A DNA stretch of 64,000 bases, from assembly GCF_001518015.1 (NCBI RefSeq), contig NZ_LPUY01000020.1, positions 1-64,000 of the forward strand. Reading direction: 5' to 3'. Each line of letters begins with the position of its first letter. Position 1 is the first letter of the stretch. Source of the DNA: Tritonibacter horizontis. GTDB lineage: Bacteria > Pseudomonadota > Alphaproteobacteria > Rhodobacterales > Rhodobacteraceae. The notes beneath the pieces were generated by a model that ran no database searches, was not told the DNA's origin, and saw nothing but the letters and a program-made list of their open reading frames with translations. Positions 11,249-30,151 of this stretch are shown here, piece by piece. Position numbers and translations under genes: made by a program.

Positions 11249-13666
<2,418 letters not shown>

Positions 13667-13667
13667 A

Positions 13668-13672
13668 CCTTG
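13668..13672. repeat. Left target-site duplication CCTTG
   Basis: The five bases immediately before the TGTAGGGAAGCG end are CCTTG, and the same five bases follow the other end at 29128-29132. Five-base duplications are characteristic of Tn7/Tn5053-family transposition. Confidence 0.9.
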
Positions 13673-13715
13673 TGTAGGGAAGCGGATAAGTTTGCGTGGC
13701 GCGCATAAGTTTGCG
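13673..13715. repeat. Left transposon end: inverted repeat plus two internal sites
   Basis: The terminal 12-mer is followed by two 15-bp direct sites, GCGGATAAGTTTGCG (13682-13696) and GCGCATAAGTTTGCG (13701-13715), 19 bp apart. A degenerate third match falls at 13720 at the same spacing. Such arrays are TnsB/TniA transposase-binding sites in Tn7-like elements. The first site starts nine bases from the tip, exactly as at the right end. Confidence 0.85.
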
Positions 13716-14082
13716 CGTCTCTCACAACTTTCGTGGACCTATAATACTTATTAATCAGTATCTTGCGGTTTTTTTGTCACGATGGCTATGTTGCAGAACC
13801 ATGTCGAAGCCATCATCCTCCTGTCTGGCGTAGACGATTCCATTACCCTGCCAATGGCCAGACTTCACCCATTGCCCCTGACAGCTTAGGTCTTATCTAT
13901 GGGGGCAGCATGCCCCAATTAAGCTGTTTGGTTCTTCTCCAAACATCTGCAAGAAATCATTATTTGCGGTGTCCGATCGAACCATAAGCTTTACTTTATA
14001 GTAGCGCTTCCAGCGCCAGAAGGCAGAGAAGCCGACTTTGTCTACGGTAGTTAGGGCTTGCAGCGGTGCGAAAAGGACACTT
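13716..14082. other. Non-coding interior of the left transposon end
   Basis: No gene is supported in these 367 bases. The sequence is AT-rich near 13740-13780. A small hairpin GGGGCA-GCA-TGCCCC lies at 13902-13916 and could help terminate the minus-strand hsd transcript, although it has no T-run. Confidence 0.5.
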
Positions 14083-17000
14083 TTAGAGCATCAATCCTGC
14101 AGTGTACCGCTGCTCGAAAAACTTGAAGATGTCATCTGTGCGGATCTCTAACTCCTTATCGTTATATTTCGAAGCCGGGAGTCCAGTATTTTCATCGTAC
14201 AGGAGGTCGTAAATTTCTTGGCGAAGACCTGCTCGCGTTGCTTGCTTCTGAAAGATGTCGTTGACCTGTTCCATCCGCGCCTTAAGGGCCTCCAACACAG
14301 CGATAGAGGCAGACTTGATTTGCTTGATCTCCTCCTGGGATAGGTCAGCCCTAAAAAGAAGGTCAAAGATTGGCTTCTGATCGGCCGACAATCCCATAGC
14401 TACGTGAGATTGCGCCTCGGCCTCCATCTCAGCAGCGAGGTGTATGAGAGCCTCGAATGTCGCCTCGATTGTGTTCTTGTCTTTCTCTTTGTTGTATTCC
14501 TTGATGATCTTGTCGAACCGCTCTTCGAAATCCGTCAGGGTCGGATTTGCTGCCAACATTTTTGCCAATCGATTTCTCACGACCTCACGGAGGTCCTGAG
14601 TATCGCTGGCTTTTCTCTCGCTTTTCGCGAATTCCTTACGCAGGAGGTCGAAATTCACCTTCGAAATATCAAATATTCGATCACCCTCGGTGTCTGGAGT
14701 TATTTGGATCGCGTCGGCAACAATGGCGTTGAGTCGCTGGATGATCGCTGTCGTGTCAGCTTCCGCCTTATCATCCTGGAGGGAGCCATAAATGTAGTTG
14801 ATAGCTTGGTAGGATTTTTTGAAATCCTCTGCCCATCCAAAGGTCAGGCATGCCTTATATTTGCGGAAGACAGCCCGCGCGACAATTTCAAAGCCTTTCC
14901 GGGTTTCATCGTTCTGATTTATTGTCTCTTTGACGTCTTTAAGGGCCTTGAGCTTGTCAAAGCCTTCGGCCTTGCGCAGCCGGTCCAAATCAAACCCACC
15001 TTCTCTCAGGCGCTCTCCGACCAGTGCAATTGCTTCGACGAGTTCGCTTCGCAGTTTTTCTTCTGGATTTACAGGGTCGACATCTGGCCCAGGCTCATCG
15101 GGGCCACCAAGAGTTCCACCCCCAGTATGGCCAGCAAAAGTCGCAAGGGCCTTGCGCAGGTTTTTCAAGATTCCGCAGTAGTCGACGATTAACCCGTTGT
15201 TCTTACCTTCTTTCACGCGATTTGCCCGAGCAATTGCCTGCATCAGGGTATGGGCCTGCAATGGCTTGTCGAGGTACAGGGTCGATAGAGACGGAACGTC
15301 GAAGCCAGTCAGCCACATGGCGCAGACGATCACAATGCGGAAGGGATGCTCTTCCCGTTTGAACGCTGTCTCGACATCCAGCCGCATATCGATTTCGCGG
15401 CCACCGACTTTTTCCTTAACCGTAAAGCCATCCTTCATTCGCTTGCGATGCGGGATGATGTCGAGGCCCCAGTCTTTGAATTTCTTGATCTCATTCTGCT
15501 CGTCGCTGACAACAACGGCCATCTCGGTCTCGCGCATCCAGGCAATCTTGGCCTCGCGCTGAAGCCGTTCTTGGTCGTCGGCGATGGAACCGAGTTCGGC
15601 CTCAAGCGCAGCGATTTGGGCCTCCCACTCGGCCTGAATGTAGTTGTACATCCGAACGGCCGTGACCTTGTCGATGGCGACATACATCGCCTTGCCGCTT
15701 TCCCAGTTGGTTGAGAAGTGCCAGGCGAAATCCTTTGCCACATGCTTCAGGCGCGGCTCGGCTGTGACGATGTGATACTCGCGTTTCAGATCGTCTGACA
15801 GTTTCGCGGCCACATCTGGGTCATCCACCTCGGCTTCGGCCAAGGCATCAGCCAGGCGGCCATTCAGGTCTGCCCCCGCGATTTTTAGCTTGTCGCCACG
15901 GGCATCGTAGAACAGCGGCAAAGTCGCTCCGTCCTCGATGGCATCCTGGAAGTCGTAGGTGGACAGATACCCACCAAACACCTGCCTGGTGATCTCGTCA
16001 TTGGCGAACAAGGCTTTCTTGGCTGCGTCCTCATCGCTGATCGCCTCTACATTGGCCTTCAGAGTCTCAGACACCTTCTCCTGCGCCTTCTGGGCAAGTT
16101 TTGACAGGTGGTCGATTTCCTTGATCAAGGTCTTGGCCTGATCCGCCAGCGGCTGCATCGCCGTCCACGCCGCCGTCAGCGCGTCGATCGAGGCATCAGG
16201 CTGTGCCAACGCGGCGGCAGCCTCCCCATAGGTCTGTGCATCGGCGTTCAGCTTCTTAACACTGGTTTTCAATTCGGCGGTGTCGGTATGCGCGATGAAA
16301 TGGGTGCAAGCCTTGCCCAGCACATCCAGCAGGTCGGCAAAGTCAGTCTGCTGGGCCTCGTCCCGCGCGGTGGACAGATAATCCTGCACCAACCCGGCAA
16401 AGCGGTCTTCTTGCCCACGATACAGCCAGACGATGGAGGTGAGGTTCTTTTCCTGTTCAGGTGAGAAGTCGCAGATCTTGCGCGTCACCTTGCGGAAAAC
16501 CTGCCGCGCATCCAGCATCAGCACCTTGTCGCGCAGATGCTCGGGCTTGCCCTTGTCCATGAACCAGATCTCGCAGGGTACGGTGCGCGTGTAGAAGAAG
16601 TTGCCCCGGATCGCGAGCATGACATCCATGTCACCGGTCTTGACCATCGCCTCGCGGACCTTGGCCTCTTGCCCGCCCGCCGAGGACGCCTGCGACGACA
16701 TGACGATGCCTGCGCGGCCCGTTTCGGACAGGTAGGAATGGAAGAAGGACATCCAGACGTAGTTGCCGTTCGAGACTTTGCCGCCCTTGTTCCCGCCCGG
16801 TAGACCGAAGGATAGGCGCTTGTCATCCTTCATCTTCTCGGCGTCGATTTCGTCGACGTTGAAAGGCGGGTTGGCCATGACGTAGTCGAAGGGGGCTTGG
16901 CCCTTGTGCGGGTCTTCGTAGTAGCTGATGGCTTTCTGGATATCACCCTCAAGGCCATGCACCGCGAGGTTCATCTTGGCCAGGCGTAGGGTCGTCGGGT

Positions 17001-17598
17001 TCTTCTCCATCCCATAGAAGGTGAGACGTTCGTTCGGGTTGGCTTTCATGGTCTCCACGAAGTGGGCAGACTGCACGAACATGCCGCCAGACCCGCAGGC
17101 TGGGTCGATGACCTTGCCACTTGTGGGCTCGATGACATTCACAATGGTTTCCACGATGCTGATCGGCGTGAAAAATTCGCCGTTGTCGTGGGCTTTCTGG
17201 TCGGCGAACTGGGTCAGGAAATATTCGTAGATGCGGCCGAACACGTCGCCGTCTGCTTTGTGAAGCGCCGGGTCATTGAAAATGCGCAGCACCTGTCGCA
17301 AGGCGTCTTCATCAAGCTCGGCGTATTCCTGTTTCGGCAGAAGCCCTTCCAAGGTTGTGTAGTCTTCTTCGATCGACTTCATCGCCGCGATGACGGCCGT
17401 TGATGCTGTCTCGCTTTCAGGAAGGCTCACCAGGTAATCGAACTGAGCGTTGTCGCGAAGGAAAATGGACGAACGCGCTGAGAAATCTTCCTTGGTCAAA
17501 GCGCGGGTTTTGCCCCCGCGAGATGGCAAGGTTGGGATGATCTCGTCACGCACCTTGAGAAAGCGCGAGTAGGCATGACGTAGAAAGATCAGGCCCAT
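14083..17598 (-). pseudogene. Decayed type I restriction-modification gene: HsdM-HsdR in-frame fusion
   Basis: 1,171 codons. Residues 1-510 are an HsdM N6-adenine methyltransferase: DPACGSGG at 165-172 (SAM motif I), NPPF at 243-246 (catalytic motif IV), then the C-terminal coiled-coil. From about residue 533 (DEITRQVFGGYLSTYDFQDAIEDGA) it is the C-terminal part of HsdR, with late helicase motifs such as TGFDVPSLSTLYLDKPL and QAIARANR. The HsdR nuclease domain and Walker A half are missing, as is any HsdS specificity subunit, so a deletion near 16,000 fused the two genes. The HsdM N-terminus is also missing about 40-50 residues; homology begins right at the ATG. Restriction is almost certainly lost; orphan methylation without HsdS is unlikely. 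Confidence 0.85.
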
Positions 17599-17624
17599 AT
17601 CTGCGCCGCTTTGCTGAAGCCGAA

Positions 17625-19343
17625 ATGTGGCCTGATGTGTCTGACTTTCTCGGGTCCTTTGGCTTGCGTTACGGCAGACCGCTCATCGAGGGCGCTTTGG
17701 AAGTGGAGGGCATCCTCGAACTCCCTGCAGGTACTCTCAGAAATATTCTTCCTTCCGCAAGGCCATCAATACCGACCCGAAACTGGAGGTTCGAACGCCA
17801 TCATAGCGCGCCCGTATGTCCGGACTGTATTTCGGACGGTAAGCCGCACCATCATTCATGGCGGCACAGTTTCGTGACGGCCTGCTCCGAACATGGTTTG
17901 AGGCTCGTCGATGAATGCCCGATGTGCGGTGAGAATTTCATGCCCGGTCGCGGCGGGTATGACAGTTGCCATTGTGGCTGTCCGCTTGATCGCTTGCCGC
18001 GGAATCAGGCGCTGGAGGTAGAGGTTGCCTTGTCCGCGCTGATCTCCGGCGACATGCACCCCGCGCGATCTGCGCTCCCACCTGCTTTGGCATTTCGCAC
18101 ACCGGTAGACATTGGGGAGTTCGTATACTTTTTGGCAAGCGTCGAAGTCGAAACCGAGACCGGAAAACAGGGCAAGACGCCACTTCCAAAAAATCTGGCG
18201 GAGGCTACTGCATTTCTCGAACCAGTATTCTCTACCTTTTGTGACTGGCCGGCGAGGTTCGAGTGTGCAGTATCGGCACGGTTGTCAAACTCAGGCGCCC
18301 CAACCGCTCCCATGCGGCTTGGCAAGTGGTACCAACGGCTGAACGCATTCGACGGCCAAGCATACAATGACTTTCATGCTACCCTCGGAAAGGTCGTCCA
18401 ACGTGAGTTTGATGGTGCCTATGCAGGGGGAGCCGACGCCCCTTCTGATATGCGGAATTGGGTCAGTGCTGCAGAGGCAGCAAAGATTTTGCACATCCGT
18501 GCAGACCGTCTTGTGGATGCGACGGCAAAACAACGCATCCCCGGGAGGAAATATGCATCGGGCTTCGGGCACCGACACACGATGATCCACCGCGATACCG
18601 TAGCTGATATTGCGCGAGACAGGCAGCGTTTCATCGACAAAACTACGGCAAGGGAGGTCTTCGGCATATCGCGCAAACAATATGACCTTCTTGCTGAAGC
18701 TGGTTTTATTTGTCGGTTCATTCCTGAAACTTTGCCACCGCTGGTGGATGGCCAACACGACAGTGTCGCAATCAAACGGTTCGTCGCAGATACCGCCTCT
18801 ACCGCGACTGAAGTTGAAGGAACGACCGTTGCCCTCAAAGATCTGAATCTTCGCTTCACCACAGATGCGGCTGCGTTGAAGGAAGTATTTTGTCGTATCT
18901 CGAACGGCCGCCTTCGGCCCGCAAAGGGTTCCACAGATGGGCGCTTCGCTGGATTTCGGTTCTCCCGCAAAGAGGTTGATACAATCATCGCTGCCGTGCG
19001 CCATGGGCCAGGTCTCACCATTCAACTGGTCGCCGAACTGACAGGCTGGAAGGATCAATGCGTCGCGCAATGGTGCAAGCAAGGCCTGATCCAGCACGAA
19101 GAATATCCTCACGCAGGCAAGGTTGGCCGTATCATCAGCCAGGAAGACTTATGCAGGTTCCAAATGGAATATGTGCCAGTCTCTACTCTTGCGGGCCAGC
19201 TTGGCACATCCGCCCGCCATCTCATGACCACACTCTCGAATATTGGCATTGAGACCATCGGGGCTTTTCAGGATGGCACCGCTTGGCGTGGTCACCTCCT
19301 CAAACTTTCCGACTTGGCTTCAGCACGAAAGACGACGCAATGA
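17625..19343 (+). CDS. TniQ/TnsD-like target-selection protein, 5'-truncated
   Basis: 572 codons from the first ATG. TniQ zinc-binding pattern: C65-P-D-C68, C87-x2-H90, C98-P-M-C101 and CHCGC near 115-119, with the typical phrase CSEHGLRLVDECPMC. The C-terminal 350 residues hold several helix-turn-helix-like modules (around VSAAEAAKILHI, TAREVFGISRKQYDLL, TIQLVAELTGWKDQ and PVSTLAGQLGTSARHL), so it resembles long, DNA-reading TnsD proteins rather than short TniQ. In frame upstream, codons at 17601-17624 read LRRFAEAE, continuing TniQ homology, but this breaks at about 17600: the true start and about 20 residues are lost. It probably chose the target for transposition, perhaps the gyrB 3' end. 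The stop overlaps the next start (ATGA). Confidence 0.82.
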   Translation: MWPDVSDFLGSFGLRYGRPLIEGALEVEGILELPAGTLRNILPSARPSIPTRNWRFERHHSAPVCPDCISDGKPHHHSWRHSFVTACSEHGLRLVDECPMCGENFMPGRGGYDSCHCGCPLDRLPRNQALEVEVALSALISGDMHPARSALPPALAFRTPVDIGEFVYFLASVEVETETGKQGKTPLPKNLAEATAFLEPVFSTFCDWPARFECAVSARLSNSGAPTAPMRLGKWYQRLNAFDGQAYNDFHATLGKVVQREFDGAYAGGADAPSDMRNWVSAAEAAKILHIRADRLVDATAKQRIPGRKYASGFGHRHTMIHRDTVADIARDRQRFIDKTTAREVFGISRKQYDLLAEAGFICRFIPETLPPLVDGQHDSVAIKRFVADTASTATEVEGTTVALKDLNLRFTTDAAALKEVFCRISNGRLRPAKGSTDGRFAGFRFSRKEVDTIIAAVRHGPGLTIQLVAELTGWKDQCVAQWCKQGLIQHEEYPHAGKVGRIISQEDLCRFQMEYVPVSTLAGQLGTSARHLMTTLSNIGIETIGAFQDGTAWRGHLLKLSDLASARKTTQ

Positions 19344-19942
19344 AATCTGATTTCAGAACGTTCTCGGATCTGCCAAAATCGATTTTACGACCATTCAACT
19401 TGGATGAAGTCGCTGCGGTTGTTGACGTGGATCGCAAGGTTGTGGTCCGAATGATTAAGAAAGGTGGATTTCCTAAGTCCATATTTTCCAGTTCAAAGAC
19501 GGCTGTTAGCGGTTCCCAGCCGATGCTCAAACCGATCGCGTGCCCAATTGTACATTTTGACCTGGCGGCCGGACACCTTCTTAGTCCTCGGCTCCGCCGT
19601 AAATTGTTGCGAGAGATTGGCGATGTAGCGAGAGGCTCTTCGAAGCAAGGTGTATTCAAGAAAGGCATATTGCGCGTTGATTTGACCGGCTCGGTCACGA
19701 AGACGGTTTCAAGAATGGCCTCATTGGCAAGCGCCGAGGCTGCAGTCCTATTCGATCCTGAAATCAGGGGAGGGTTGCCGGTCATGCGGGGAACACGAAT
19801 TGGTGTTTACGAATTAGCGGATCTCTGCAGGTTTGAAACGGTTCACTACATTTTGGAGAATTTCCCAAGCCTGACGGCAGAGCATCTTGAACAGGCAAGC
19901 CTATATGCAAGGGCTCATCCGCTCAGTAGTGTCCCTGGTTGA
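19340..19942 (+). CDS. DUF433 (VapB45-like) protein coupled to tniQ
   Basis: 200 residues; the ATG overlaps the tniQ stop by four bases. The N-terminal part (RPFNLDEVAAVVDVDRKVVVRMIKKGGFP) looks like a helix-turn-helix. The C-terminal part (FDPEIRGGLPVMRGTRIGVYELADL ... NFPSLTAEHLEQASLYARAHP) is a DUF433 domain as in VapB45-type antitoxins, whose usual partner is a PIN-like toxin. No such toxin gene follows; the last residues LSSVPG differ from the usual charged tail, and non-coding sequence plus an IS derivative come next. It may be an orphaned antitoxin or a transposon accessory protein. Confidence 0.65.
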   Translation: MKSDFRTFSDLPKSILRPFNLDEVAAVVDVDRKVVVRMIKKGGFPKSIFSSSKTAVSGSQPMLKPIACPIVHFDLAAGHLLSPRLRRKLLREIGDVARGSSKQGVFKKGILRVDLTGSVTKTVSRMASLASAEAAVLFDPEIRGGLPVMRGTRIGVYELADLCRFETVHYILENFPSLTAEHLEQASLYARAHPLSSVPG

Positions 19943-20180
19943 GTTTGTTCTCTCTGGCAACCTGGAAAGGGCCACCGAAACCGCTGCTGCAGCTTGCACC
20001 TTCGGCGAGCCATGATGTCATTGGCTCGAAGCGGCCCATCAAAGAAGTAGCTTCTGCTGCCTTGATCCCCATGGAGATTGAAACGACCCATTGGAGCGGG
20101 CCTCATTGTTCGCGACCGATGCGAGTTTCCTATGCACATAGATCTGCGAGGGATGTTCGAAGGACAATTATCAAACTCTC
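19943..20180. other. Non-coding stretch between DUF433 gene and IS derivative
   Basis: No gene supported. The sequence TAGTGTCCCTGG at about 19927 resembles the outer tip of the IS256-type inverted repeat (TAGTGTCCCAGG), so this may be debris from an earlier insertion, but no matching second end was found. Confidence 0.35.
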
Positions 20181-20702
20181 GATAGTGTCCCAGGACGTGG
20201 TGTAACTTGTTCTCCGGCTGGGTGTTGAGCCGGTTTACAGGACGGCGATTTTCGCCGGGTCCATGATGTTATCCTCGCAGATGGCAGCGACGGTTTTCGC
20301 AGTTTGGGTATCTGAACATCGACGGCACCGGCACGCGTCTCCCATCGGCGTTCACGATACCCGTTTCGGCGGTTCATCCGCCCGGTGGAGCGCTCGTGTG
20401 CCCCGGCACCGCACAGCTGGTCTACATCCAGCGCCATCAACCGGTCGGCGACAAAGCCAAGCATCTCGGCAAGTATCTGGTGGTCGGCTGTCTCCGAAAG
20501 AAGCGCTTTCAACGCGGCCGTTTCTGATATCGTATCTTTGGTCATGGGGATCTCCTTGATCGGTAGGTCAGGTGTGCAACCCAATCCCTACCGGAGAACG
20601 TCCATGGCCGCCCAGCAACCCGCACGGGCTTCGCTTGAGCTACGCAAGGCTCCGTTCAGCCCGCGCTACCATCAGAATTACACCACCTCCTGGGACACTA
20701 TC
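20181..20702 (-). mobile_element. IS256-family deletion derivative with 8-bp target duplication
   Basis: Twenty-five-base terminal inverted repeats (20181-20205 and 20678-20702) match at 24 positions and begin GATAGTGTCCCAGGA. The element is flanked by a perfect 8-bp duplication, AAACTCTC, at 20173-20180 and 20703-20710, the size made by IS256-family transposases. At 522 bp it is far shorter than a complete IS256-type element (about 1.3 kb), so its middle is deleted and it can move only if a related transposase acts in trans. Confidence 0.88.
20228..20545 (-). pseudogene. N-terminal remnant of IS256-family transposase
   Basis: From ATG 20545 the minus strand reads MTKDTISETAALKALLSETA and then a stretch with GRMNRRNGYRERRWETRAG and VDVQIPKLRK, the conserved N-terminus of IS256/Mutator-type transposases. 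After about 90 residues homology ends at the internal deletion, and the DDE catalytic core is absent. The end coordinate is approximate. Confidence 0.75.
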
Positions 20703-20827
20703 AAACTCTCCGAACTGCGAACCATTTCTGTAGTTCAAATCTAATCATTAGCATGCGCACCTTCACTACAGATTGACACGCAGAGCAGCGTGTGCAGCAT
20801 CGAGCCATACTTATCAAGAGTTGCATT
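20703..20827 (+). promoter_or_regulatory. Presumed promoter region of the giant helicase gene
   Basis: An AT-rich 125-bp leader containing the palindrome CTAATCATTAG (20741-20751). The segments CTGTAG (about 20729) and CTACAG (about 20765) form a further dyad. It is the only space between the IS end and the gene, so a promoter must lie here or inside the IS. No convincing -35/-10 pair was identified. Confidence 0.3.
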
Positions 20828-23800
20828 ATGTCAGAAATCATTGATCCAATAACCACAGCTGAGGAAGATCAGAACCTCACGGTAACTTTCTCTACGGCGG
20901 ATAAAATCAATTTCTCCTCCGCCCAGAACGGCGTTTCGATTCTTCGCAAGATTAAGTTAATCAATGGGACAGATGCGCCTCTGGAGAACCTTTCTATTAC
21001 GATTGAGAGCACGCCCTCTGTCATCAAGCCGAAAACCTGGACGCTGGATCGGCTTGGCCCAGGCGAAGAACGGAAGCTGTCTGATCTCGAAACGCCCTTA
21101 AATGACGCGCTCCTATCCGGGCTGAACGAGGCAGAGTTTGGCCAATTGAAATTGACGGTATCCGCCGATGACACGCGACTGTTTCGCGAAGACCGTCGGA
21201 TCGAAATGCTGGCTCGGGACGAATGGGGCGGCATCGGAGATATGGCCCATCTGCTGGCTGCTTATGTCTCGCCCAACGATGCGGTGGTGGCAGCCATCCT
21301 GAAGGAGGCCGGTCGGCTGCTGGAGCGTGGCGGAAAAAGCGGCGCAATTGACGGCTACCAGTCGAAAGATCCAGGGCGTGTGTGGATGCTCGCGGGAGCA
21401 ATCTGGTCTGCGACCACCGCGCTTGGATTGACCTATGCCTATCCTCCAGCGTCTTTTGAGACACGCGGTCAGAAGGTTCGCAGCCCTGCGCGCGTTAAAT
21501 CAGAAGGGCTTGCAACCTGCTTGGACAGTTCCTTGTTGCTTGCTGCGTGCTTCGAAGCGGCTGGGTTGAACTCAGTGGTTCTATTTTCTGAGGGTCACGC
21601 TTGGGCAGGTGTTTGGCTTACCGAACGCGATTTCGGTCAGGTGACGGAACCTGATGTCATGACTGTGCGCAAGGCCATTGACGCCCGCGAGTTTATCACC
21701 ATGGAGACGACACTTCTAACAAAGCGACCAACTATCGGTTTGGAGCAGGCAGTCAGCGTCGGACGTGACCTGACGGCTGAACGCAATGAGCATACCTTCC
21801 AATTGGCCGTTGATGTTCGGCGGGCACGCGTCGCGCGCATCAGGCCGCTTGCCTCTCACAGCATTGAGACAAACCCAGAAGCTGAACTGATCGAAGCTGC
21901 GCCCCCAGCCTTGCCAAAGCCGCTGGCCTTTGATTTCCTGCCAGGTGATCTCGTAGATGAAGAGCCGAAGACGCCACAAGATCGCATTTCACGCTGGCAA
22001 CGTAAGCTGCTGGATCTGTCCCTGCGCAACCGCTTGCTGAATTTCCGCGATACCAAGCAAACTATCCCCTTTGTCTGTCCGGACGTTTCGAGTCTTGAAG
22101 ACCAATTGGCCGAAGGAAAGAAATTCAAAGCTCTTGCACTCAAGGACGAAGATCCAGTCGGACAGCGTGACCTGCTAAGCAAGGAAGAGCCTAAGCTGCT
22201 CGAAGATGTCGCGCGCGACGCCTTTGCCAAAGGACAACTGGCTGTCCCATTAACAGGAAAAGACACAAACAACCGCCTTCTCGGGCTTTTCCGCAAGGCC
22301 AAGAGCGACATGCAGGAAGGCGGCACCAATACTCTGTTTCTCGCCGCAGGCTTCCTGCGTTGGAAAAAGACTGACACCGATACACGCAGCTACCGTGCAC
22401 CATTATTGCTTATCCCCGTGAAGGTATCGCGTCGCTCTGCCCAATCCGAATTCATCATCGAGCACCACGAGGATGATGTCCGCCTGAACGCGACTCTCCT
22501 CGAGTTTCTCAAGCGCGACTTTGACCTTCATATCCCAGAACTTGAGGGGGAGTTGCCGCGTGATGAGAGCGGCTACGACCTGCCGCTGATATTCGAAATC
22601 ATGCGGCGCAAAGTGCGCGACGTCGCGGGGTTCGAGGTGGTGGTGGAACTGGCTATGTCAACCTTCTCCTTTGCCAAGTTCCTGATGTGGAAAGACCTGG
22701 TAGAGCGGACGGATAGCCTGCGCAATAATGCATTGGTACAGCACCTCGTCGACAATCCAACCGAGCCATTCCTTGCCGAAGGTGCGGCCGCACTTCCCTC
22801 AGCAGCTGATGTGGATCGACGGGTCGCACCACGAGATATGTTCACGCCGTTGCCTGCGGATTCTTCACAGTTGTCGGCTGTCCTTGCTGCACAGGACGGG
22901 CATGATTTTGTCCTTATCGGCCCTCCAGGAACCGGCAAAAGCCAGACTATCGCTAACATCATTTCGCAGTGTCTCGCAGTTGGAAAGACCGTTCTTTTCG
23001 TTGCCGAGAAGTCCGCGGCGCTGGACGTCGTACATCGTCGCTTATCGGCGCATGGGCTTGGCGACGCGGTCTTGGAACTCCATTCCAACAAGGCAGACCG
23101 AAAGTCTGTGCTCAATCAACTGGGGCGTAGCTGGGATCGGCAGGGCGAAGTGTCAGAGGCCGAATGGATTCGAGTGACTGATGACCTTTCGATCAAACGC
23201 ACTCAGTTGAATGAGTACGTTGCGGCCCTTCATCGCAAGGGTACGCAGGGCTTCAGTGTCTATGAAGCGGTGGGCCATGCTGCGCACGCGGAGGTTTCTT
23301 TTGAGCTGTCCTTTGACAACAAGGATGCCCACGATGCCGAGAGCTATGCGCATTTAAGGACCTTGGCCGAGGCGGTCGGGCGCTGTCACCAAATTGTCCA
23401 GGACCGCCCAGCTTTGCCACTGGTCGGTGCCGAAGAGTGGTCTTTCGGCTGGCAAACTGAGCTTTTGTCGCGCTCGGAGAACCTGAGAAAGGCCACTCGT
23501 GAGGTGGCAGAGCACGCGACCGCCTTAACTGCTTTGTATGGGTTAACTGAAGATGCTCTGACCAAGGACCGGCTTGAAGAATTGGTGGCGCTTTCTGGAT
23601 GGCCGGCCAACGGTTCCGATGTAAGCTGGGGCTTGGAGGCGGACCTGCCGAATGCGGTCCAGGAAAGTGAACGACTTGCCCCAATGTTGGACGCGTATCG
23701 CACCGCGTCCGAGGCACTATCGGCAAGTTATCCTTTGGATCGACTGAGCACGATGCCGCTCGACCAGATGGATGCTGACTGGCGGCGTGCCCAAACCAAG

Positions 23801-26737
23801 TTCTGGCCATTCTCAACCTTCGCCAAATCCGCAGTGCGAAAGCTGCTGCAGACCTACGCTACAGGTGGCAAGGCTGATCCGAGTAACGACATTGCCGGTC
23901 TCGATGCCTTGCGGCGGATCAACGGCGACATCGAGACCATTGCATTGTCCAGCTGTCCCGCTTTCGAAAAGGCCGTAACCGACGCCACCCGTTTGGCCCA
24001 GTTGATCGGTGAGGCGCAGCAATTCAGAGCGGTGACCGACCCGCTGGCGTCAAAGGTCTCGGATCACTCACAATGGACTGAGGTCAAACTTACTCTGGCA
24101 CGCCGCGAGACTGGCGCCCTACGGACAGCCCTGGATGGCTTCAGTAAGGTTCATGAAAATTGGATCGCTCAGGCGGATGCCTTCCAGCAAGTAGCAGGCA
24201 CCGACCCTACAAAGCATTCCTTTGATGACCTCACCCAGCTGCTTGATCAAACGTTGGAGAACCGCGAGGCGTTGGAGGACTGGACGCGTTGGATCAACGT
24301 CCGCAATCAAGCTTGCGGGGCAGGATTGACCTCCCTGGTCGAAGCTGTTGAAGCCCGAACTTTGACTGGTGCCGTCGAAGAAGCTTTCACCACGGCCTAC
24401 GCCCAGTGGTGGCTGCCGCGGGCCATGGACGCAGAAGTAGCGCTGCGGGGCTTTTCCCACTGGTCCCATGAGGACGCGATCGACAAGTTCCGCGCCCTCG
24501 ACGATCGTGCTACTGAGATGGCAGCAGGGCAAGTCCTTCACCGCATCCGCCATGGTTTACCTGCTCGCGATGGCGTGGCCCGCAAATCGGAGCTGGGAAC
24601 CCTGCGCCACCAGCTCGGCCTGCAACGCCCCAGTATGCCGATCCGATCCCTGGTTTCAGAAATGCCTGATACCTTCACCAAACTCGCACCATGTGTGTTG
24701 ATGTCGCCGTTGTCTGTCGCGCAATACCTGCCTGCGGGGCAAGCTGCCTTTGACGTCGTAATCTTCGACGAAGCATCTCAGATCACAACCTGGGACGCGA
24801 TTGGCGCAATAGCACGAGGCCGGCAAGCCATTATCGTTGGCGACCCCAAGCAGCTGCCCCCCACCAACTTCTTTGGTCGCAACGATGACCCCGAAGAGGA
24901 TCTGCCAGAAAGCGAAAAAGACCTCGCTTCGATTCTTGACGAGGTGTCCGCTGCGGGTATCCCGACCCAGCAACTTGACTGGCACTACAGGAGCAGGGAT
25001 GAATCACTAATCGCATTCTCCAACTGGCATTACTATGGCGGGAGACTGGTGACCTTTCCGTCACCAGCCACGGAATCCCAAGCAGTAAAGCTGCACCAGA
25101 TAAATGGCACTTATGCCCGTGGCATGGGGCGCACTAACGAGGACGAGGCCCGAGCCATATCCCGTATGGTTGTGCTCCGGTTGACAGAATGGCTCGTGCT
25201 GCCTGAAGTAGAGCGCCTCACGCTTGGCGTCATCACCTTTAACGGTGAGCAACAAGGGCTGATCCTCGACCTGCTGGATGAGGAGCGCCGCAAGAACCCC
25301 GAACTGGAATGGTTCTTTGAAGACGAACGCGAAGAACCCGTCATCGTTAAAAATCTGGAAAACATCCAAGGGGACGAACGCGACATCATGCTGTTCTCGA
25401 TCACCTTCGGTCCGGATCACGCTGGCAAGCTTTCGATGGCGTTTGGTGCGCTCAATAGCGATGGTGGGGAGAAGCGGTTGAACGTAGCAATTACCCGCGC
25501 TCGGCAAGAGTTGCATATCTTTGCCTCGGTTCGTGCGGATCAGATCGACTTGACCCGCACAAAGGCGCTTGGCGTAAAGCACCTCAAGGGTTTCCTGGAC
25601 TTCGCGGCGCGTGGGCCAGTTGCACTTCCTTCGCAAGACGATGGCTCCCTCGGCCCTGTGGAGAACGTCTTTGAGGCGGCCATCAAAGTGGCCATTGAGG
25701 CGAAGGGTTGGGAACTACGGCCACAAATTGGTGTCTCCGGCTTCCGTATCGACTTGGGTGTCGTGCATCCGGATCATGCGGGCGTGTACCTTGCAGGGAT
25801 CGAATGCGACGGGGCGACCTATCACGGCTCTGCCACGGCGAGAGACCGGGATAAAGTACGACAAGCTGTTCTGGAAAACCTCGGCTGGACGATTTTGCGC
25901 ATCTGGTCGACTGATTGGTTCAAGAACCCAAAGGCCGTCGTGGAGCGTATCCATGACGCGCTGACGAACCATCTGGAGGACGACCGGGCAAGGCGCGCGG
26001 AAGAAGATGCCACCCGAGCTACTTCATTTGAAGAGGAATTGCCGACCGACGAAATCGAACCTGTCGAACAAAGTAATGCAACTGAAATGGTGACAGCTCC
26101 GGTGAAACTGGAGCAAGTGCCTGATCCAACTATGGATCTACTCGAACCTCGCGAAGAACCTCTTGTTGCAGGCGTTAAACGTCCGGAACATGATTTAATA
26201 GAAGCGGGCGCTACGGAGGTATTCGGAGATCTGCCTCCAGATCCGGAGCAATTCTACGATGCGGCCTACATCCCGCGCCTTGAACGTCTGATAGAGGATA
26301 TCGTCGAGAACGAAGGACCACTTCCAGTGACACTCCTTTCCCGGCGTGTCGCTCAAAAACATGGATGGCAACGTACTGGGCGACGTATCGTTGAACAGGT
26401 GCGCGCGGCCTTGGCGCGCATCGATGTCCACAATGCGGACGGCGTCGATTTTGCATGGAGGAAGGGCAGTCACTCAAACCGTGTACCGTTTCAGACTGAC
26501 CTGGATCGCAGCATCCGCGACATCTCGCGCGCAGAAATTGCCTGGCTCTATGACGCTAATGCACCGGCGCTCGAACGAAGCGACGACCCCGCTCGCGATC
26601 TATCGCGTCTGGTAGGCTTGCAGCGTTTGACAGCCGACAGCCGAAGTTATCTCGAAGCCTGTCTCGAATGGCGGAAAGAATCTACTTCGGAGCCAGTCGC
26701 AGACGCTCCACAGGAAAATCAGGATCGCGACCCGTAG
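20828..26737 (+). CDS. Giant transglutaminase-like / DUF4011 / SF1 helicase / PD-(D/E)XK nuclease / DUF3320 defence-type protein
   Basis: 1,969 residues from ATG 20828 (AAGAG upstream; a GTG at 20792 is a less likely start). An N-terminal beta-rich domain is followed by a transglutaminase-like segment with Cys231 (ATCLDSSLLLAA) and His257 (EGHAWAGVW), then DUF4011 (WQRKLLDLSLRNRLLNFRD). The superfamily 1 helicase has Walker A GPPGTGKS at 698-705, Walker B FDEAS around 1314 with GDPKQLPPTNF, and the late motif NVAITRARQELHIF. A Vsr/MTES_1575-type nuclease follows with Asp1642 (RIDLG) and Glu1659 (ECDGATYHG), then a DUF3320 domain near the C-terminus (AAYIPRLERLIEDIVE). Proteins of the DUF4011-helicase-Vsr type have been reported as single-gene antiphage systems (I recall the name Hhe). 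All motifs appear intact, so this is the most likely active defence cargo. Confidence 0.88.
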   Translation: MSEIIDPITTAEEDQNLTVTFSTADKINFSSAQNGVSILRKIKLINGTDAPLENLSITIESTPSVIKPKTWTLDRLGPGEERKLSDLETPLNDALLSGLNEAEFGQLKLTVSADDTRLFREDRRIEMLARDEWGGIGDMAHLLAAYVSPNDAVVAAILKEAGRLLERGGKSGAIDGYQSKDPGRVWMLAGAIWSATTALGLTYAYPPASFETRGQKVRSPARVKSEGLATCLDSSLLLAACFEAAGLNSVVLFSEGHAWAGVWLTERDFGQVTEPDVMTVRKAIDAREFITMETTLLTKRPTIGLEQAVSVGRDLTAERNEHTFQLAVDVRRARVARIRPLASHSIETNPEAELIEAAPPALPKPLAFDFLPGDLVDEEPKTPQDRISRWQRKLLDLSLRNRLLNFRDTKQTIPFVCPDVSSLEDQLAEGKKFKALALKDEDPVGQRDLLSKEEPKLLEDVARDAFAKGQLAVPLTGKDTNNRLLGLFRKAKSDMQEGGTNTLFLAAGFLRWKKTDTDTRSYRAPLLLIPVKVSRRSAQSEFIIEHHEDDVRLNATLLEFLKRDFDLHIPELEGELPRDESGYDLPLIFEIMRRKVRDVAGFEVVVELAMSTFSFAKFLMWKDLVERTDSLRNNALVQHLVDNPTEPFLAEGAAALPSAADVDRRVAPRDMFTPLPADSSQLSAVLAAQDGHDFVLIGPPGTGKSQTIANIISQCLAVGKTVLFVAEKSAALDVVHRRLSAHGLGDAVLELHSNKADRKSVLNQLGRSWDRQGEVSEAEWIRVTDDLSIKRTQLNEYVAALHRKGTQGFSVYEAVGHAAHAEVSFELSFDNKDAHDAESYAHLRTLAEAVGRCHQIVQDRPALPLVGAEEWSFGWQTELLSRSENLRKATREVAEHATALTALYGLTEDALTKDRLEELVALSGWPANGSDVSWGLEADLPNAVQESERLAPMLDAYRTASEALSASYPLDRLSTMPLDQMDADWRRAQTKFWPFSTFAKSAVRKLLQTYATGGKADPSNDIAGLDALRRINGDIETIALSSCPAFEKAVTDATRLAQLIGEAQQFRAVTDPLASKVSDHSQWTEVKLTLARRETGALRTALDGFSKVHENWIAQADAFQQVAGTDPTKHSFDDLTQLLDQTLENREALEDWTRWINVRNQACGAGLTSLVEAVEARTLTGAVEEAFTTAYAQWWLPRAMDAEVALRGFSHWSHEDAIDKFRALDDRATEMAAGQVLHRIRHGLPARDGVARKSELGTLRHQLGLQRPSMPIRSLVSEMPDTFTKLAPCVLMSPLSVAQYLPAGQAAFDVVIFDEASQITTWDAIGAIARGRQAIIVGDPKQLPPTNFFGRNDDPEEDLPESEKDLASILDEVSAAGIPTQQLDWHYRSRDESLIAFSNWHYYGGRLVTFPSPATESQAVKLHQINGTYARGMGRTNEDEARAISRMVVLRLTEWLVLPEVERLTLGVITFNGEQQGLILDLLDEERRKNPELEWFFEDEREEPVIVKNLENIQGDERDIMLFSITFGPDHAGKLSMAFGALNSDGGEKRLNVAITRARQELHIFASVRADQIDLTRTKALGVKHLKGFLDFAARGPVALPSQDDGSLGPVENVFEAAIKVAIEAKGWELRPQIGVSGFRIDLGVVHPDHAGVYLAGIECDGATYHGSATARDRDKVRQAVLENLGWTILRIWSTDWFKNPKAVVERIHDALTNHLEDDRARRAEEDATRATSFEEELPTDEIEPVEQSNATEMVTAPVKLEQVPDPTMDLLEPREEPLVAGVKRPEHDLIEAGATEVFGDLPPDPEQFYDAAYIPRLERLIEDIVENEGPLPVTLLSRRVAQKHGWQRTGRRIVEQVRAALARIDVHNADGVDFAWRKGSHSNRVPFQTDLDRSIRDISRAEIAWLYDANAPALERSDDPARDLSRLVGLQRLTADSRSYLEACLEWRKESTSEPVADAPQENQDRDP

Positions 26738-26856
26738 TTCTCCGGAGCGAAGGCATTCAAGAGATACAACCAATTTTAAGGTTGTGCCGGACGCATGAGT
26801 GATAGCGTCGCGTCCTACTGCCCCTTTTGGCTCTTAACATGATCGACGCTCTGGTG

Positions 26857-26892
26857 CAGTTACAGACAATTATTCGGATTTGTCTGTAACTG
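26857..26892. repeat. 13-bp perfect inverted repeat
   Basis: Arms CAGTTACAGACAA (26857-26869) and TTGTCTGTAACTG (26880-26892) are exact complements around a 10-base spacer. It lies 120 bases after the giant gene. It could be a terminator without a T-run, or an operator. Confidence 0.6.
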
Positions 26893-27039
26893 AAACTACG
26901 CGTCCAACGACCGCCAAGCATAGTTTCTTGAAATACAACCTGATGGCATGCATAGGCGATATCTTCAGTATTTCGCCCGATATACCAGTATAGTGGGTAA
27001 AATACCGTCGCTATACCGACAAAAAGGAGGCACAAAGCT

Positions 27040-27076
27040 CGGCCTCGATGCCCAGCCCCTTACGGAAAATGTTGAT
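27040..27076 (-). repeat. Inverted copy A of a 37-bp gene-end fragment
   Basis: Read on the minus strand it matches 28947-28983 on the plus strand at 33 of 37 bases. Both encode INI(F/Y)R(K/Q)GLG(I/L)(E/D)A before a stop codon, so they look like the 3' ends of two related, otherwise missing genes. Confidence 0.55.
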
Positions 27077-27223
27077 ATGAGTGCTTCCATTTGCCCCCGG
27101 AAGGGCCAGCATTGCTTTTGAAACAAGGTTCTTGTGGAAACTCTGAGGGGGAACGCAAGTGTGCTAAGTCTCGAAAATATCTTCGAGAGGGCTCCGAGCG
27201 GATCGCTGCGAGTATCCTCGACA

Positions 27224-27319
27224 TTTACTTGAGCTTGGACAACATCATTTACTTGAAATTGGACTATGATGTTTACTTGATAACGGACAAGGCTATATAC
27301 TTGAAATTGGACGCATGTG
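27224..27319 (+). repeat. Four tandem 24-bp direct repeats upstream of the Fic gene
   Basis: Units begin at 27224, 27248, 27272 and 27296, exactly 24 bp apart, with consensus TTTACTTGAAATTGGAC followed by seven variable bases. They end 16 bases before the Fic start codon. The spacing and position fit an operator array bound by the product of the downstream gene, whose N-terminal domain resembles AbiEi-type DNA-binding antitoxins. Confidence 0.75.
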
Positions 27320-27335
27320 ATGAATCGGGACGGTT

Positions 27336-28853
27336 ATGGTAGACAAACGGGAGATCTTGGCCGGCGCGATGGAAGCCCTGCACACCTTGCAGAAGCAAGG
27401 ACATCTTGTTGTTCGCAGCGGCGAGATCGACCCGGTGAGGATCAAGGCGCTAAGGAAGGCGGGCTATCTTCAGCCCATCATGAAGGGCTGGTATCATCTG
27501 TCGGACCCCAGTTCGCGTCCTGGTGACACGACGCCGTGGACGATGAGCTACTGGTCATTTATCCAGAGATACTGCGAGCATCGTTTCGGTAGCGACTGGG
27601 TTCTCAGTCCTGAGATTTGCCTTAGCCTGCATACTGGATCTCAGGTGCCGGTTACCCAGGTGATGGTGCATGCCCCCAAGGGAGGCAACAATGCTGTCGA
27701 ACTCCCAGGCAAGCGCTCGCTCTTCGATCTGAGGGTCAGGGAGCTTCCTGAGCAGGGACGGAGGATGCAGATGCCGAATGGGCTGAGGGTCTACACTCCG
27801 GAGGCCACGCTGATCCATATGGCAGAGAATTGCTATCATACGCAGGCTATGTCGGTGGCAGCACTGATGGGCAGCTACCGAAATGTCGATGTCCTGTTGC
27901 GCGCGGTGGTGGGCGGGGCGCACAGGCGCCCGGGTAACCGCCTGGTTGGCGCGTTCAAGCACTTGGGGATGGACGATCACGCCAAGCGCCTGGCCGATGG
28001 CATGCGCCGCGCAGATATGGATCTGAGGAATGAAAACCCCTTTACGGGGGAAGGCATTGCTGTTGTTGCTGGTGCGGCCCCGATCTCTAACATGTTGCGA
28101 GCGATATGGCAGAGGGACCGACAAGCGATCATTGACCTGCTACCGGCCCCGGGAGGGCCTGTGGAAGTCGACGAGGTGCTTGGGCGGATCGACGATGTCT
28201 ACACCCATGATGCCTGGAACTCGCTCTCGATCGAAGGTTATCGGGTCTCCGAAGAGCTGATCGAGAAGATTCGCAGCGGTAGCTGGGACCCGGAGGCCGA
28301 CATGTCGGACGCCACCTCTCGTGATGCAATGGCCGCAAAGGGCTACTGGAATGTTTTCCAGTCTGCCCGCGAGGTGGTGAAAACATCCATCGAGCGAGGT
28401 GAGCCGGTCTCGGTGCGCGACAATCTAAGCGATTGGTATCAGGATCTCTTCGAGCCGTCGATCGACGCAGGCATCCTGACGCGAGGCCAACTGATCGGAT
28501 ATCGCAATCACCCGGTATTTATTCGCACAGCCAATCATGTGCCCCCGGCGTGCGAAAAGCTTATGGATGCGATGGAGACCTACTTCGACCTCCTTGACGA
28601 GGAGGAGCATTCCGGAGTGCGCGCGGTGCTTGGTCACTGGCTTTTGGGCTACATCCACCCTTATCCCGACGGAAACGGGCGCCTCGCTCGTTTCGTGATG
28701 AACGCGGTGCTCGCGAGTTCGGGCTATCCATGGGCTGTGATCCGGCTCGATCAGCGGAGGCGCTATATGCAGGCTCTCGACGCTGCGAGTTTTGGAGGCG
28801 ATATCGCTCCCTTCGCGAAGCTGATAAGTGAGCATCTTGGCAACAAGCCCTGA
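27336..28853 (+). CDS. AbiEi-like domain fused to Fic AMP-transferase domain
   Basis: 505 residues. The N-terminal ~200 residues (ALRKAGYLQPIMKGWYHLSD ... LSPEICLSLHTGSQVP) resemble the winged-helix and companion domain of AbiEi-type antitoxins. The C-terminal half is a Fic domain with the catalytic loop HPYPDGNGR at His441 and following. An inhibitory motif S-x3-E-G (SLSIEG, Ser296/Glu300) precedes the Fic core, as in class II Fic proteins whose own helix blocks ATP binding. The catalytic residues are complete. It therefore resembles a one-chain toxin-antitoxin with a DNA-binding half, fitting autoregulation through the four 24-bp repeats directly upstream. Modified target unknown. Confidence 0.85.
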   Translation: MVDKREILAGAMEALHTLQKQGHLVVRSGEIDPVRIKALRKAGYLQPIMKGWYHLSDPSSRPGDTTPWTMSYWSFIQRYCEHRFGSDWVLSPEICLSLHTGSQVPVTQVMVHAPKGGNNAVELPGKRSLFDLRVRELPEQGRRMQMPNGLRVYTPEATLIHMAENCYHTQAMSVAALMGSYRNVDVLLRAVVGGAHRRPGNRLVGAFKHLGMDDHAKRLADGMRRADMDLRNENPFTGEGIAVVAGAAPISNMLRAIWQRDRQAIIDLLPAPGGPVEVDEVLGRIDDVYTHDAWNSLSIEGYRVSEELIEKIRSGSWDPEADMSDATSRDAMAAKGYWNVFQSAREVVKTSIERGEPVSVRDNLSDWYQDLFEPSIDAGILTRGQLIGYRNHPVFIRTANHVPPACEKLMDAMETYFDLLDEEEHSGVRAVLGHWLLGYIHPYPDGNGRLARFVMNAVLASSGYPWAVIRLDQRRRYMQALDAASFGGDIAPFAKLISEHLGNKP

Positions 28854-28867
28854 CAGAAAGGCTATGT

Positions 28868-28901
28868 CTCGAAGCGTATCGGCGCGCCAACACGCTTCGA
28901 G
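28868..28901 (+). terminator. Hairpin after the Fic gene
   Basis: Perfect 10-bp arms CTCGAAGCGT / ACGCTTCGAG enclose a loop that itself contains GGCGCGCC. It lies 15 bases after the stop codon and is not followed by a T-run, so termination is inferred from placement. Confidence 0.5.
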
Positions 28902-28946
28902 CCTTACTCCACAGCACGGAATGGTCACCCAAAGAGGGACGACGCC

Positions 28947-28983
28947 ATCAACATTTACCGTCAGGGGCTGGGCCTCGATGCCG
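28947..28983 (+). repeat. Inverted copy B of the 37-bp gene-end fragment
   Basis: Partner of 27040-27076. In frame it reads DDAINIYRQGLGLDAALSQ before TAG at 29010-29012. No start or upstream body of such a gene remains, so it is a 3' remnant next to the right transposon end. The family was not recognised. Confidence 0.55.
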
Positions 28984-29025
28984 CCTTATCCCAAGGCCAG
29001 CACCTACATTAGCACCGGATATGCG

Positions 29026-29127
29026 CGCAAAGTTATGCGCTCAAACGGCGCAAAGATATGTGCTCAATGTCATGGCTAAGTCATTGATATATGGTGATCG
29101 ACGCGCAAAGATACGCGCTTCCCTACA
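29026..29127. repeat. Right transposon end: inverted repeat plus three internal sites
   Basis: Three 15-bp sites in inverted orientation to the left-end ones: CGCAAAGTTATGCGC (29026-29040), CGCAAAGATATGTGC (29049-29063) and CGCAAAGATACGCGC (29104-29118), spaced 23 and 55 bp. The tip CGCTTCCCTACA (29116-29127) is the exact complement of the left tip. Unequal site number at the two ends is a Tn7-family trait. Confidence 0.85.
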
Positions 29128-29132
29128 CCTTG
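29128..29132. repeat. Right target-site duplication CCTTG
   Basis: Exact match to 13668-13672. Removing the element and one copy restores a continuous gyrB 3' flank leading to the terminator at 29155. Confidence 0.9.
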
Positions 29133-29154
29133 TCTCACGACACAGGAATCACGG

Positions 29155-29182
29155 GGCGTCGCACAAAATTTTGTGCGGCGCC
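29155..29182. terminator. Displaced gyrB terminator, probably shared with the convergent LysR gene
   Basis: A 14-bp dyad, GGCGTCGCACAAAA / TTTTGTGCGGCGCC with one G:T pair, is followed by AATTTCTTT on the plus strand. Before the transposon inserted it would have stood about 30 bases after the gyrB stop codon. It also lies beyond the 3' end of the minus-strand LysR gene, so it can act in both directions. Confidence 0.75.
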
Positions 29183-29231
29183 AATTTCTTTGCCCAATCT
29201 TGGATCCTTGCAGGCCAAGGGCAGATCAAAC

Positions 29232-30122
29232 TCAATCCAGAGTGGTGGCGAGTTCTTTGACGAAGGCCTTGATCCGTTTTAACCGCGCACTGGGCGTCAG
29301 GTTTCGTCGGGAAATGGACCAGAGCTGCTGATACCGGGGGAGGGGCAGGCGCGCGACCTCCACGCGATCTGCAAAGGGAAATGTCGCAAGACCGCTGCGT
29401 GGCAATAACGTGTAGCCCAGACCTTCGGCGACGGGGCCCGGTATCTGGCCGATCTGGTTCACGTAAGTGCGCAGCCTCAGCCTGTCGGAACCGGTGAACG
29501 CCATTGGGAAATTCAGCGAAAACAGCTCATTCGCATAGCGATAGACATCCGGGTGCGCGACAAGGCCCAGATTTTCAAGATCGTCGAACCCCACAGTCTG
29601 GCCTCTTCCCTTTGGGAGCACGAGGCACAGTTCCTCTTGCCCGATATGCTGTGCGTCGATGCGGGGATGACGTGGCTCTTCGCTGACCACGCCAAGATCA
29701 AAGCGCCCGTCCAAGACGCCTTCAAGAACGCGGTCCTGTGGCGCGGCTTCGACATGGATCGCGAGCTTGGGCGCATCGCGCATCAGATCTATGGCGCGAG
29801 GGTACAACAGCAGGGCGAAACTACCCGAGCAAGCGATCCGAAGCTCTCCAACGTTCGGATCCTCTCGCGTGATCTCGTCCCGCAGCGTTTTTTCCTCCGC
29901 GCGCCGTGACAGACCCAGATCGCGGACCGTTTCTCCTGCATCGGTCAGGGTGAAGCTCTTTCCATCCTGCGCGATCAGCTTTTGCCCGAGTTGCCGTTCG
30001 AGTTTGCGCAACTGTTGCGACACGCCCGGCTGCGTCATGTTCAGCCGTTCTGCGGCGCGGGTGAAATGCCCTTCTTCTGCGAGAACAGTGAAGGTTTCGA
30101 TCCAGGTGGCATTGAGCATCAT
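29232..30122 (-). CDS. LysR-type transcriptional regulator
   Basis: 296 residues. The N-terminal winged helix (FTVLAEEGHFTRAAERLNMTQPGVSQQLRKLERQLG) is a textbook LysR DNA-binding domain, followed by a periplasmic-binding-protein-like effector domain. Divergent from a VOC-family gene with a 17-bp dyad between them, so it probably controls that gene and itself. Two consecutive ATG codons (30122, 30119) could serve as start. The effector is unknown. Confidence 0.92.
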   Translation of the reverse strand: MMLNATWIETFTVLAEEGHFTRAAERLNMTQPGVSQQLRKLERQLGQKLIAQDGKSFTLTDAGETVRDLGLSRRAEEKTLRDEITREDPNVGELRIACSGSFALLLYPRAIDLMRDAPKLAIHVEAAPQDRVLEGVLDGRFDLGVVSEEPRHPRIDAQHIGQEELCLVLPKGRGQTVGFDDLENLGLVAHPDVYRYANELFSLNFPMAFTGSDRLRLRTYVNQIGQIPGPVAEGLGYTLLPRSGLATFPFADRVEVARLPLPRYQQLWSISRRNLTPSARLKRIKAFVKELATTLD

Positions 30123-30151
30123 TTATAACGCCATGTTTTGATATTCATTAA

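Follow-up and report, generated by a model that had tools for sequence, protein, structure and literature searches.

What brought a 15-kb island to the end of gyrB in the alphaproteobacterium Tritonibacter horizontis, and can it still move? The island lies in the window analysed here, a stretch of 64,000 nucleotides (contig NZ_LPUY01000020.1, positions 1 to 64,000, forward strand), and an earlier note on this stretch had described it as a Tn7/Tn5053-like element with complete boundaries. The observations reported below indicate that it is very probably a defective member of a group of Tn7-like transposons that home to the 3' end of gyrB.

Boundaries of the element

The left tip, TGTAGGGAAGCG (13673-13684, forward strand), begins 6 nt after the gyrB stop codon TGA (13664-13666), and its exact complement, matching at 12 of 12 bases, forms the right tip at 29116-29127 on the reverse strand. 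The tips are flanked by the two copies of the target duplication, CCTTG, at 13668-13672 and 29128-29132, and the element measures 15,455 bp without the duplications. With up to one mismatch allowed, the 12-mer has two matches in the 64 kb, which are the two element ends; shuffled sequence gave a mean of 0.21 matches, and two were reached in 1 of 100 shuffles. No other exact copy was found in the 139 contigs of the genome, where two further places match with one mismatch. The base-exact boundaries of a single transposon insertion proposed in the earlier note are borne out by the perfect 12-bp tips and the repeated CCTTG.

Several copies of a site at each end had also been noted, and these were recovered as a 17-mer, GCGCATAAGTTTGCGCG. 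Two direct copies 19 bp apart lie at the left end (13682-13717, forward strand): 13682-13698 with two mismatches and 13701-13717, which is exact and near-palindromic and therefore scores on the opposite strand too. Three copies lie on the reverse strand at the right end (29024-29118), at 29024-29040 (one mismatch), 29047-29063 (four) and 29102-29118 (three), with spacings of 55 and 23 bp. Elsewhere in the window, GCGCATAAGTTTGCGCG has four matches with up to four mismatches, at 10577, 54224 and 29160/29161, the last being both strands of a single palindrome immediately beyond the right end. The sites at both ends are predicted to bind TnsB.

Insertion at the end of gyrB in other genomes

The gene beside the left tip is gyrB (11249..13666, forward strand, an 805-aa open reading frame), and its 3' end is the putative attachment site. 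That this place is used recurrently had gone unremarked in the earlier note. The hexamer TGTAGG was sought 3 to 8 nt after the end of gyrB in 394 genomes, a sample of the family Rhodobacteraceae. It was found in 38, at a gap of 5 nt in 31 and 6 nt in seven, with no occurrence at gaps of 3, 4, 7 or 8 nt and none of the reversed pattern in the same genomes. In each of the 38, the coding end matches GyrB, with 79-100% identity across the 42-100 codons that were read. Under a uniform distribution of gaps, the probability of 38/38 at a gap of 5 or 6 would be 7e-19, the relatedness of the genomes being ignored in this and the following probabilities. A survey of 18 genomes of the genus, in which G008 was unreadable because its gyrB match is incomplete, found TGTAGG or TGTAGA 5-6 nt after the gyrB end in five (G000, G007, G009, G012 and G013). 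The left end in G009 is 90% identical to that of the window over 231 bp, and its 5-mer, CGGGT, is unlike CCTTG, so that it represents an independent insertion. Among 385 genomes of the class, the junction was found in the T. horizontis genome only; five of the 385 belong to the same family, and the resulting 0/380 outside it is a weak negative, as the pattern assumes the family's last GyrB codons.

The presence of the junction was also compared with that of the selector gene, tnsD. A hidden Markov model of three TnsD proteins matched in seven of the 394 genomes, and all five genomes with strong matches (G000, G374, G209, G090 and G314) have a gyrB junction on the contig that carries tnsD. Two of these, G374 and G209, had escaped the pattern search, their GyrB having another final residue; they keep the spacing nonetheless, so the last codon is probably not essential. 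The chance of 5/5 is 9e-6 with these two, read by eye, added, and that of the 3/5 found by the blind pattern alone is 0.007. The four genomes with the closest relatives of the window's selector (L017-L020, described below) all have the junction, which lies on another contig in the L017 genome; at the background rate, the chance of 4/4 is 9e-5.

The bases between gyrB and the tip vary. Among the 36 of 44 loci that have a gap of 5 nt (the eight with 6-nt gaps were left out), 33 different 5-mers occur, and the coding end upstream is conserved. The cut site is therefore most likely not what is recognised, and the sequences point to the gyrB coding end as the most likely recognised DNA. The conservation of that end proves nothing alone, since the protein it encodes also keeps it conserved. 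Two of the 44 loci, L043 and L044, lack a TGTAG tip; they were kept by a default offset and excluded from the junction count. At junctions L040-L042, L085, L087, L092, L095, L108, L110, L113, L114 and L117, contigs end approximately 0.6-2.2 kb past gyrB, as if a repeat lay there.

Two-ended elements and their end sites

Seven elements of approximately 4-28 kb after gyrB have tips at both ends and an exact 5-bp duplication. Besides the window element, these are G217 (locus L083, ~4.35 kb), G019 (L103, ~6.29 kb), G060 (L107, ~14.07 kb, with three mismatches in the 10-bp tip), Mesobaculum littorinae (L123, 18,482 bp, flanked by GCGCG and carrying tnsABCD), Pseudophaeobacter EL27 (L126, 13,061 bp) and G209 (27,710 bp, flanked by GGCCT and carrying tnsABCD). 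The tips of EL27 and G209 agree in their outer bases only, and both assignments consequently rest on CCTACA plus the 5-mer. A search for right ends over the 44 loci found the exact duplication in four (the window, L083, L103 and L107). A looser criterion (tip up to three bases off, duplication up to one) gave 0 to 1.55 chance matches per locus with random 5-mers, and for this reason only exact duplications were counted; G332 (L100), with a candidate right tip two bases off and a duplication of 4/5, falls outside the count. For the L017 element and for G374, G090 and G314, no pairing of the right ends was achieved.

Another TGTAGG directly follows the right duplication of L083, and the next one in EL27 shares a single base with the duplication there, which suggests repeated docking at the same place. 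G090 has, 5.2 kb past the gyrB junction (L089, L158), the hexamer AACCCC between a right tip and a left tip that face each other. Its complement, GGGGTT, stands at the gyrB junction itself. The genes tnsB, tnsC and tnsD lie on the other strand, and the arrangement resembles the product of an inversion between elements in tandem.

Sites like those at the window's left end recur in register: 35 of 47 gyrB left ends carry one at position 9, 28 or 49, counted in bases from the tip, compared with 0/700 in control inner stretches; the control matters because the consensus was drawn by eye from left-end rows, and the matches are thus partly circular. Both positions 9 and 28 are occupied in 20 left ends and position 49 in eight, and two have sites out of register. 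Two-site left ends belong to the group with high-identity tnsD (the window, L123-L125, G314 and EL27), with some sites below threshold; three-site left ends are those of G209 and G090, where tnsD is ~35-43% identical to that of L017; and G374 has only one site. The end sequences co-vary with islands in other genomes, as the earlier note had anticipated.

Transposition proteins of related elements

The window's TniQ-family protein has four relatives in GTDB genomes: L017, a Sulfitobacter metagenome-assembled genome (88% identity); L018, M. littorinae; L019, an uncultured Sulfitobacter; and L020, Pseudophaeobacter EL27. At L017, L018 and L019, tnsA, tnsB, tnsC and tnsD lie in a row, the families having been named on L017. 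TnsB of the relatives matches Pfam Mu-transpos_C (33.2 bits), and its D260, D344 and E380 are invariant in 3/3 proteins, with 83 and 35 residues between them. Its best match in the PDB is TnsB of Tn6677 (E 9e-21), with prototype Tn7 TnsB ranking lower. TnsC matches Pfam TniB (65.9 bits) and, in the PDB, VchTnsC (E 3.5e-9). The L017 TnsD scores 33.6 bits against Pfam TniQ, above the cut-off of 27, and a PDB search matched the N-terminal region of TnsD to TniQ chains of known structure (best E 2e-7). Its predicted structure was too poor for use (mean predicted local distance difference test score, pLDDT, 50.7); residues ~440-590, which are of higher confidence, show repeated helix-turn-helix-like units.

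A tnsA-like gene stands in the expected position at L017, L018, L019, G314, G374 and G209, and catalytic-type residues of the form E..D..ExK are conserved in 4/4 aligned proteins. At five of these six loci (all except G209), a divergent gene, here called tnsX, lies upstream of tnsA. The copy in L017 gave neither a Pfam match above the cut-off nor any NCBIfam match, and carries a PD-(D/E)XK-like D..ExK motif (conserved D179..E193xK195). A tnsX profile found nothing in the PDB, and its predicted structure (pLDDT 80.9) had no PDB match at E <0.001; the best were SfsA, YaeQ and, weakly, BpuSI. We take these to be PD-(D/E)XK-fold proteins, which agrees with the motif and is a lead only. The gene occupies 5369-6196 in L017, 5411-6226 in L019, 4388-6223 in L018 and 8917-9735 in L091; the frame in L018 is longer, with a ParB_N domain.

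Loss of the transposition genes from the window copy

The TniQ-family gene that had been reported inside the element is present (17598..19343, forward strand, with Pfam TniQ and HTH_17 regions), and its product scores 26.9 bits against Pfam TniQ, just below the cut-off of 27, and 51 bits against the PADLOC I-F TniQ model. It is truncated at its 5' end: homology to L017 tnsD starts at 17598, which is codon 16, and the first usable start codon is at 17625, codon 25. The window aligns to L017 over three segments, 17598-20180 with L017 9955-12539 (87%), 20699-27052 with 12528-18880 (95%) and 28972-29127, the right end, with 18870-19025 (94%). As the alignment begins at 17598, the window lacks everything left of tnsD codon 16. 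No match to tnsA, tnsB or tnsC was found in the window at 13000-33000 (the rest of the genome was not searched for them), and no transposase belonging to the element was found among its genes. Judged from these alignments, the window copy is a defective member that has lost the tnsA, tnsB and tnsC genes together with the first codons of tnsD, and is not autonomous. The boundaries claimed in the earlier note are complete; the element within them is not.

The truncated tnsD and a truncated hsdM meet at one junction, 17598. One deletion, cutting into hsdM as well, would most simply have removed all of these genes and the first codons of tnsD, after which the copy could move only with proteins supplied by another element. 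It is rather unlikely that the element instead arrived already without tnsABC, mobilized in trans. Its perfect tips and duplications would fit such an arrival, as would the two-ended gyrB elements L083, L103 and L107, in which no tns match was found and no obvious transposase was visible by eye among the open reading frames (a reading made without a library scan of the proteins); G217 gave no Pfam TniQ match at all. The shared junction of the two truncated genes looks like decay, and the order in time cannot be read from sequence.

Proposed mechanism and its alternatives

By homology with Tn7, TnsD, with its TniQ-family N-terminal region and C-terminal helix-turn-helix region, would read the final stretch of the gyrB coding region, recruit the AAA+ protein TnsC and so direct the TnsA nuclease and the TnsB DDE transposase. 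Insertion would then take place 5-6 nt past the gyrB stop with a 5-bp duplication, and because it falls beyond the stop codon the essential gene stays whole. The cargo varies from element to element, with defence genes among it. Defence cargo is not confined to the window element, as that of L019 has nearly full-length matches to GajA and GajB (Gabija).

Several observations weigh against homing to gyrB by a Tn7-like machinery. The TnsA profile scores are weak (19.7 bits against a Pfam cut-off of 26.5; 32.4 against an NCBIfam cut-off of 110), the TnsA profile had no match in the PDB, and G090 matched tnsB, tnsC and tnsD but not tnsA. Ten of the 47 left ends have no site at the threshold used, and of the 41 genomes whose junction reads TGTAGG or TGTAGA, 21 lack a Pfam TniQ match and 20 have one. 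The two weak matches to the tnsD profile, G343 (E 1e-12) and G332 (E 9e-10), are not at gyrB: G343 has no gyrB junction, and the match in G332 is some 430 kb from its junction. The left end of the L017 element is not tied to gyrB on one contig, and the two right ends of that element form no simple pair with the gyrB junction of its genome. The earlier note had expected related genomes to show a single CCTTG running into the right flank; none of the genus gyrB ends read does so. The right flank was recognized by DNA in three of the 18 genus genomes, T. horizontis itself, G006 (same contig, ~220 kb from gyrB) and G009 (another contig); the window's exact empty site was not found, nor was a gyrB-linked right flank in any of the 18 other than the T. 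horizontis genome. Finally, we infer the binding of TnsD to gyrB, and no transposition was observed.

Three other explanations of the locus were considered in addition to arrival without tnsABC. The gyrB-side tip might be merely a conserved gyrB transcription terminator that resembles a transposon end. A terminal hairpin with arms of at least 8 can indeed form in 13 of the 47 left ends, and in G010 (L044) and G011 (L043) a left-end-like hairpin after gyrB is followed by host-type genes with no clear element. Matching right tips with exact duplications 4-28 kb away in seven elements, the lack of a strong terminal hairpin in some left ends, the window's included, and the association with tnsD make this very improbable as a general account. 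It may hold for old solo ends, where it is compatible with a transposon origin. In G010 and G011, the hairpin is possibly an old transposon end retained as the gyrB terminator.

A Tn5053-like element (tniABQ plus resolvase), moving replicatively via cointegrates into res-like targets, would equally leave 5-bp duplications and carry a TniQ-family gene, and the TnsC relatives do match Pfam TniB. This is nevertheless highly unlikely: the relatives have a TnsA-like gene beside tnsB, their target at gyrB is fixed, the nearest PDB chains to their TnsB and TnsC are of the Tn6677 type, and no resolvase was found among the eight window and ten relative proteins scanned. The Tn7-like half of the earlier designation is therefore retained and the Tn5053-like half set aside. 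Least probable of all is an island of a site-specific recombinase using an attachment site in the gyrB 3' end, which would account for insertion always at one place by the end of an essential gene, the varied cargo and the several elements without a visible transposase, but would reuse one core rather than leave 33 kinds of 5-mer in 36 junctions, exactly duplicated beside inverted TGT..ACA tips in seven elements, and no integrase was found among the eight window proteins scanned.

Relation to known elements

Tn7 targets glmS with TnsABC and TnsD. The relatives of the window element resemble it in gene order, with a TnsA-like gene followed by those for TnsB, TnsC and TnsD, and in a target duplication of 5 bp. 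Their tips are likewise TGT/ACA and adjoin arrays of predicted TnsB sites, they too insert just beyond an essential gene and, by analogy, TnsD is the reader of the target. They differ in the target gene, in low sequence similarity, in having no TnsE among the proteins scanned, in the extra divergent tnsX at five of six tnsA loci and, for the window copy, in the lack of TnsABC. Members of the Tn5053 family have no TnsA, encode the TniR resolvase and insert at res sites; the TniQ-family selector and the 5-bp duplication are shared with them, whereas the TnsA-like gene, homing to gyrB and the lack of a resolvase among the proteins scanned are not.

According to the text available of a 2024 review (PMC11406308), Tn7-like elements tend to have the end with close-set sites next to the attachment gene. 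The left end of the window element, with sites 19 bp apart, adjoins gyrB and follows this tendency. The same text describes Tn7017-type I-F3 CRISPR-associated transposons in which TniQ targets parE, a paralogue of gyrB. In both cases a TniQ-family protein directs, or here would direct, insertion beside a gene for a type II topoisomerase B subunit, and the likeness extends to TnsB and TnsC, which are closest in the PDB to those of I-F3 elements, and to the selector's match to the PADLOC I-F TniQ model. The differences are the target, gyrB and not parE, the single TniQ-family gene per tns locus read, and, as far as the scan reached, the lack of Cas genes: no Cas effector matched among the proteins scanned from the window and L017-L019 (the full cargo of the other elements was not scanned).

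The attachment sites named in the text of the 2024 review are glmS, yhiN, comM, parE, guaC, yciA, ffs, rsmJ and tRNA sites. Neither gyrB nor gyrase occurs in the main text of Benler 2021 (PMC8649781), the 2024 review (PMC11406308) or Faure 2023 (PMC10293859), and in the available part of a Shewanella paper (PMC12452197) gyrB serves host phylogeny. As a Tn7-family attachment site, gyrB was not found in the literature searched, which comprised titles and the starts of abstracts, with supplementary tables and subscription papers outside it. Recurrent homing to gyrB thus appears undescribed within the literature that could be searched. It would add gyrB to the Tn7-like attachment sites alongside glmS, parE, comM, tRNA genes and others, and would make the bases 5-6 nt after gyrB in this family a place to look for base-defined cargo islands, defence genes among them. 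TnsD would be a selector with a directly testable target and of possible use in safe-site integration in alphaproteobacteria, and the elements without tns genes make the in-trans spread of Tn7-type islands testable.

A wider picture can be put forward tentatively, as one possibility. At least two Tn7-like lineages, distinguished by two-site and three-site left ends and by TnsD proteins only ~35-43% identical between them, might share docking at gyrB; cargo-only islands with intact tips might be moved in trans by tns proteins from other sources; repeated docking might build tandem arrays in which cargo is sorted and exchanged behind the essential gene; and the selector might read the DNA for a C-terminus common to GyrB and ParE. 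If so, that shared C-terminus would link the selector to the parE-homing selector of I-F3 elements. A plasmid search with the window tnsD returned five records, all below 60% identity.

Cargo and nested insertions

From left to right, the element carries an hsdM-hsdR fusion (reverse strand), the TniQ-family gene (forward strand), a DUF433 gene, a Mutator-type remnant (reverse strand), a DUF4011 gene and a Fic gene. The fusion (14083..17598, reverse strand; Pfam, PADLOC and NCBIfam) is an in-frame deletion remnant of a type I restriction system that joins positions 38-552 of 653 of the PADLOC MTase_I profile to 452-1002 of 1029 of the REase_I profile, from which it follows that hsdS, the N-terminal part of HsdR and both ends of HsdM are missing. 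Each truncated, the two genes still form one open frame of 1171 codons (14083-17598). The DUF433 protein (19283..19942, forward strand; Pfam, 43.8 bits) is cargo, as is the DUF4011 helicase-nuclease (20792..26737, forward strand), a protein of 1981 aa that is common to L017 (95.6% identity) and is a PADLOC candidate defence protein, PDC-S37.

Two further insertions are nested in the element, and both are absent from L017. The first (20181..20702, 522 bp) is a deleted Mutator/IS256-type insertion sequence with inverted tips, an 8-bp duplication, AAACTCTC, and a short transposase remnant on the reverse strand. The second (27053..28970, 1918 bp), for which the empty site is seen in L017, has inverted tips (CAGCCCCT..) and a 12-bp duplication, GGCCTCGATGCC, and carries the Fic gene at 27336-28853; no transposase was seen within 27053-28970. 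The transposition to the end of gyrB does not by itself explain all of the defence-type genes, as the earlier note had proposed: Fic came separately, on the second nested insertion, and hsdM/hsdR are fused by a deletion. The tips of the Fic insertion are ~24 bp long, the 37-nt arms as computed including the near-palindromic duplication GGCCTCGATGCC, and three repeats of TTTACTTGA..TTGGAC with 24-bp spacing lie near its start, at 27224-27312.

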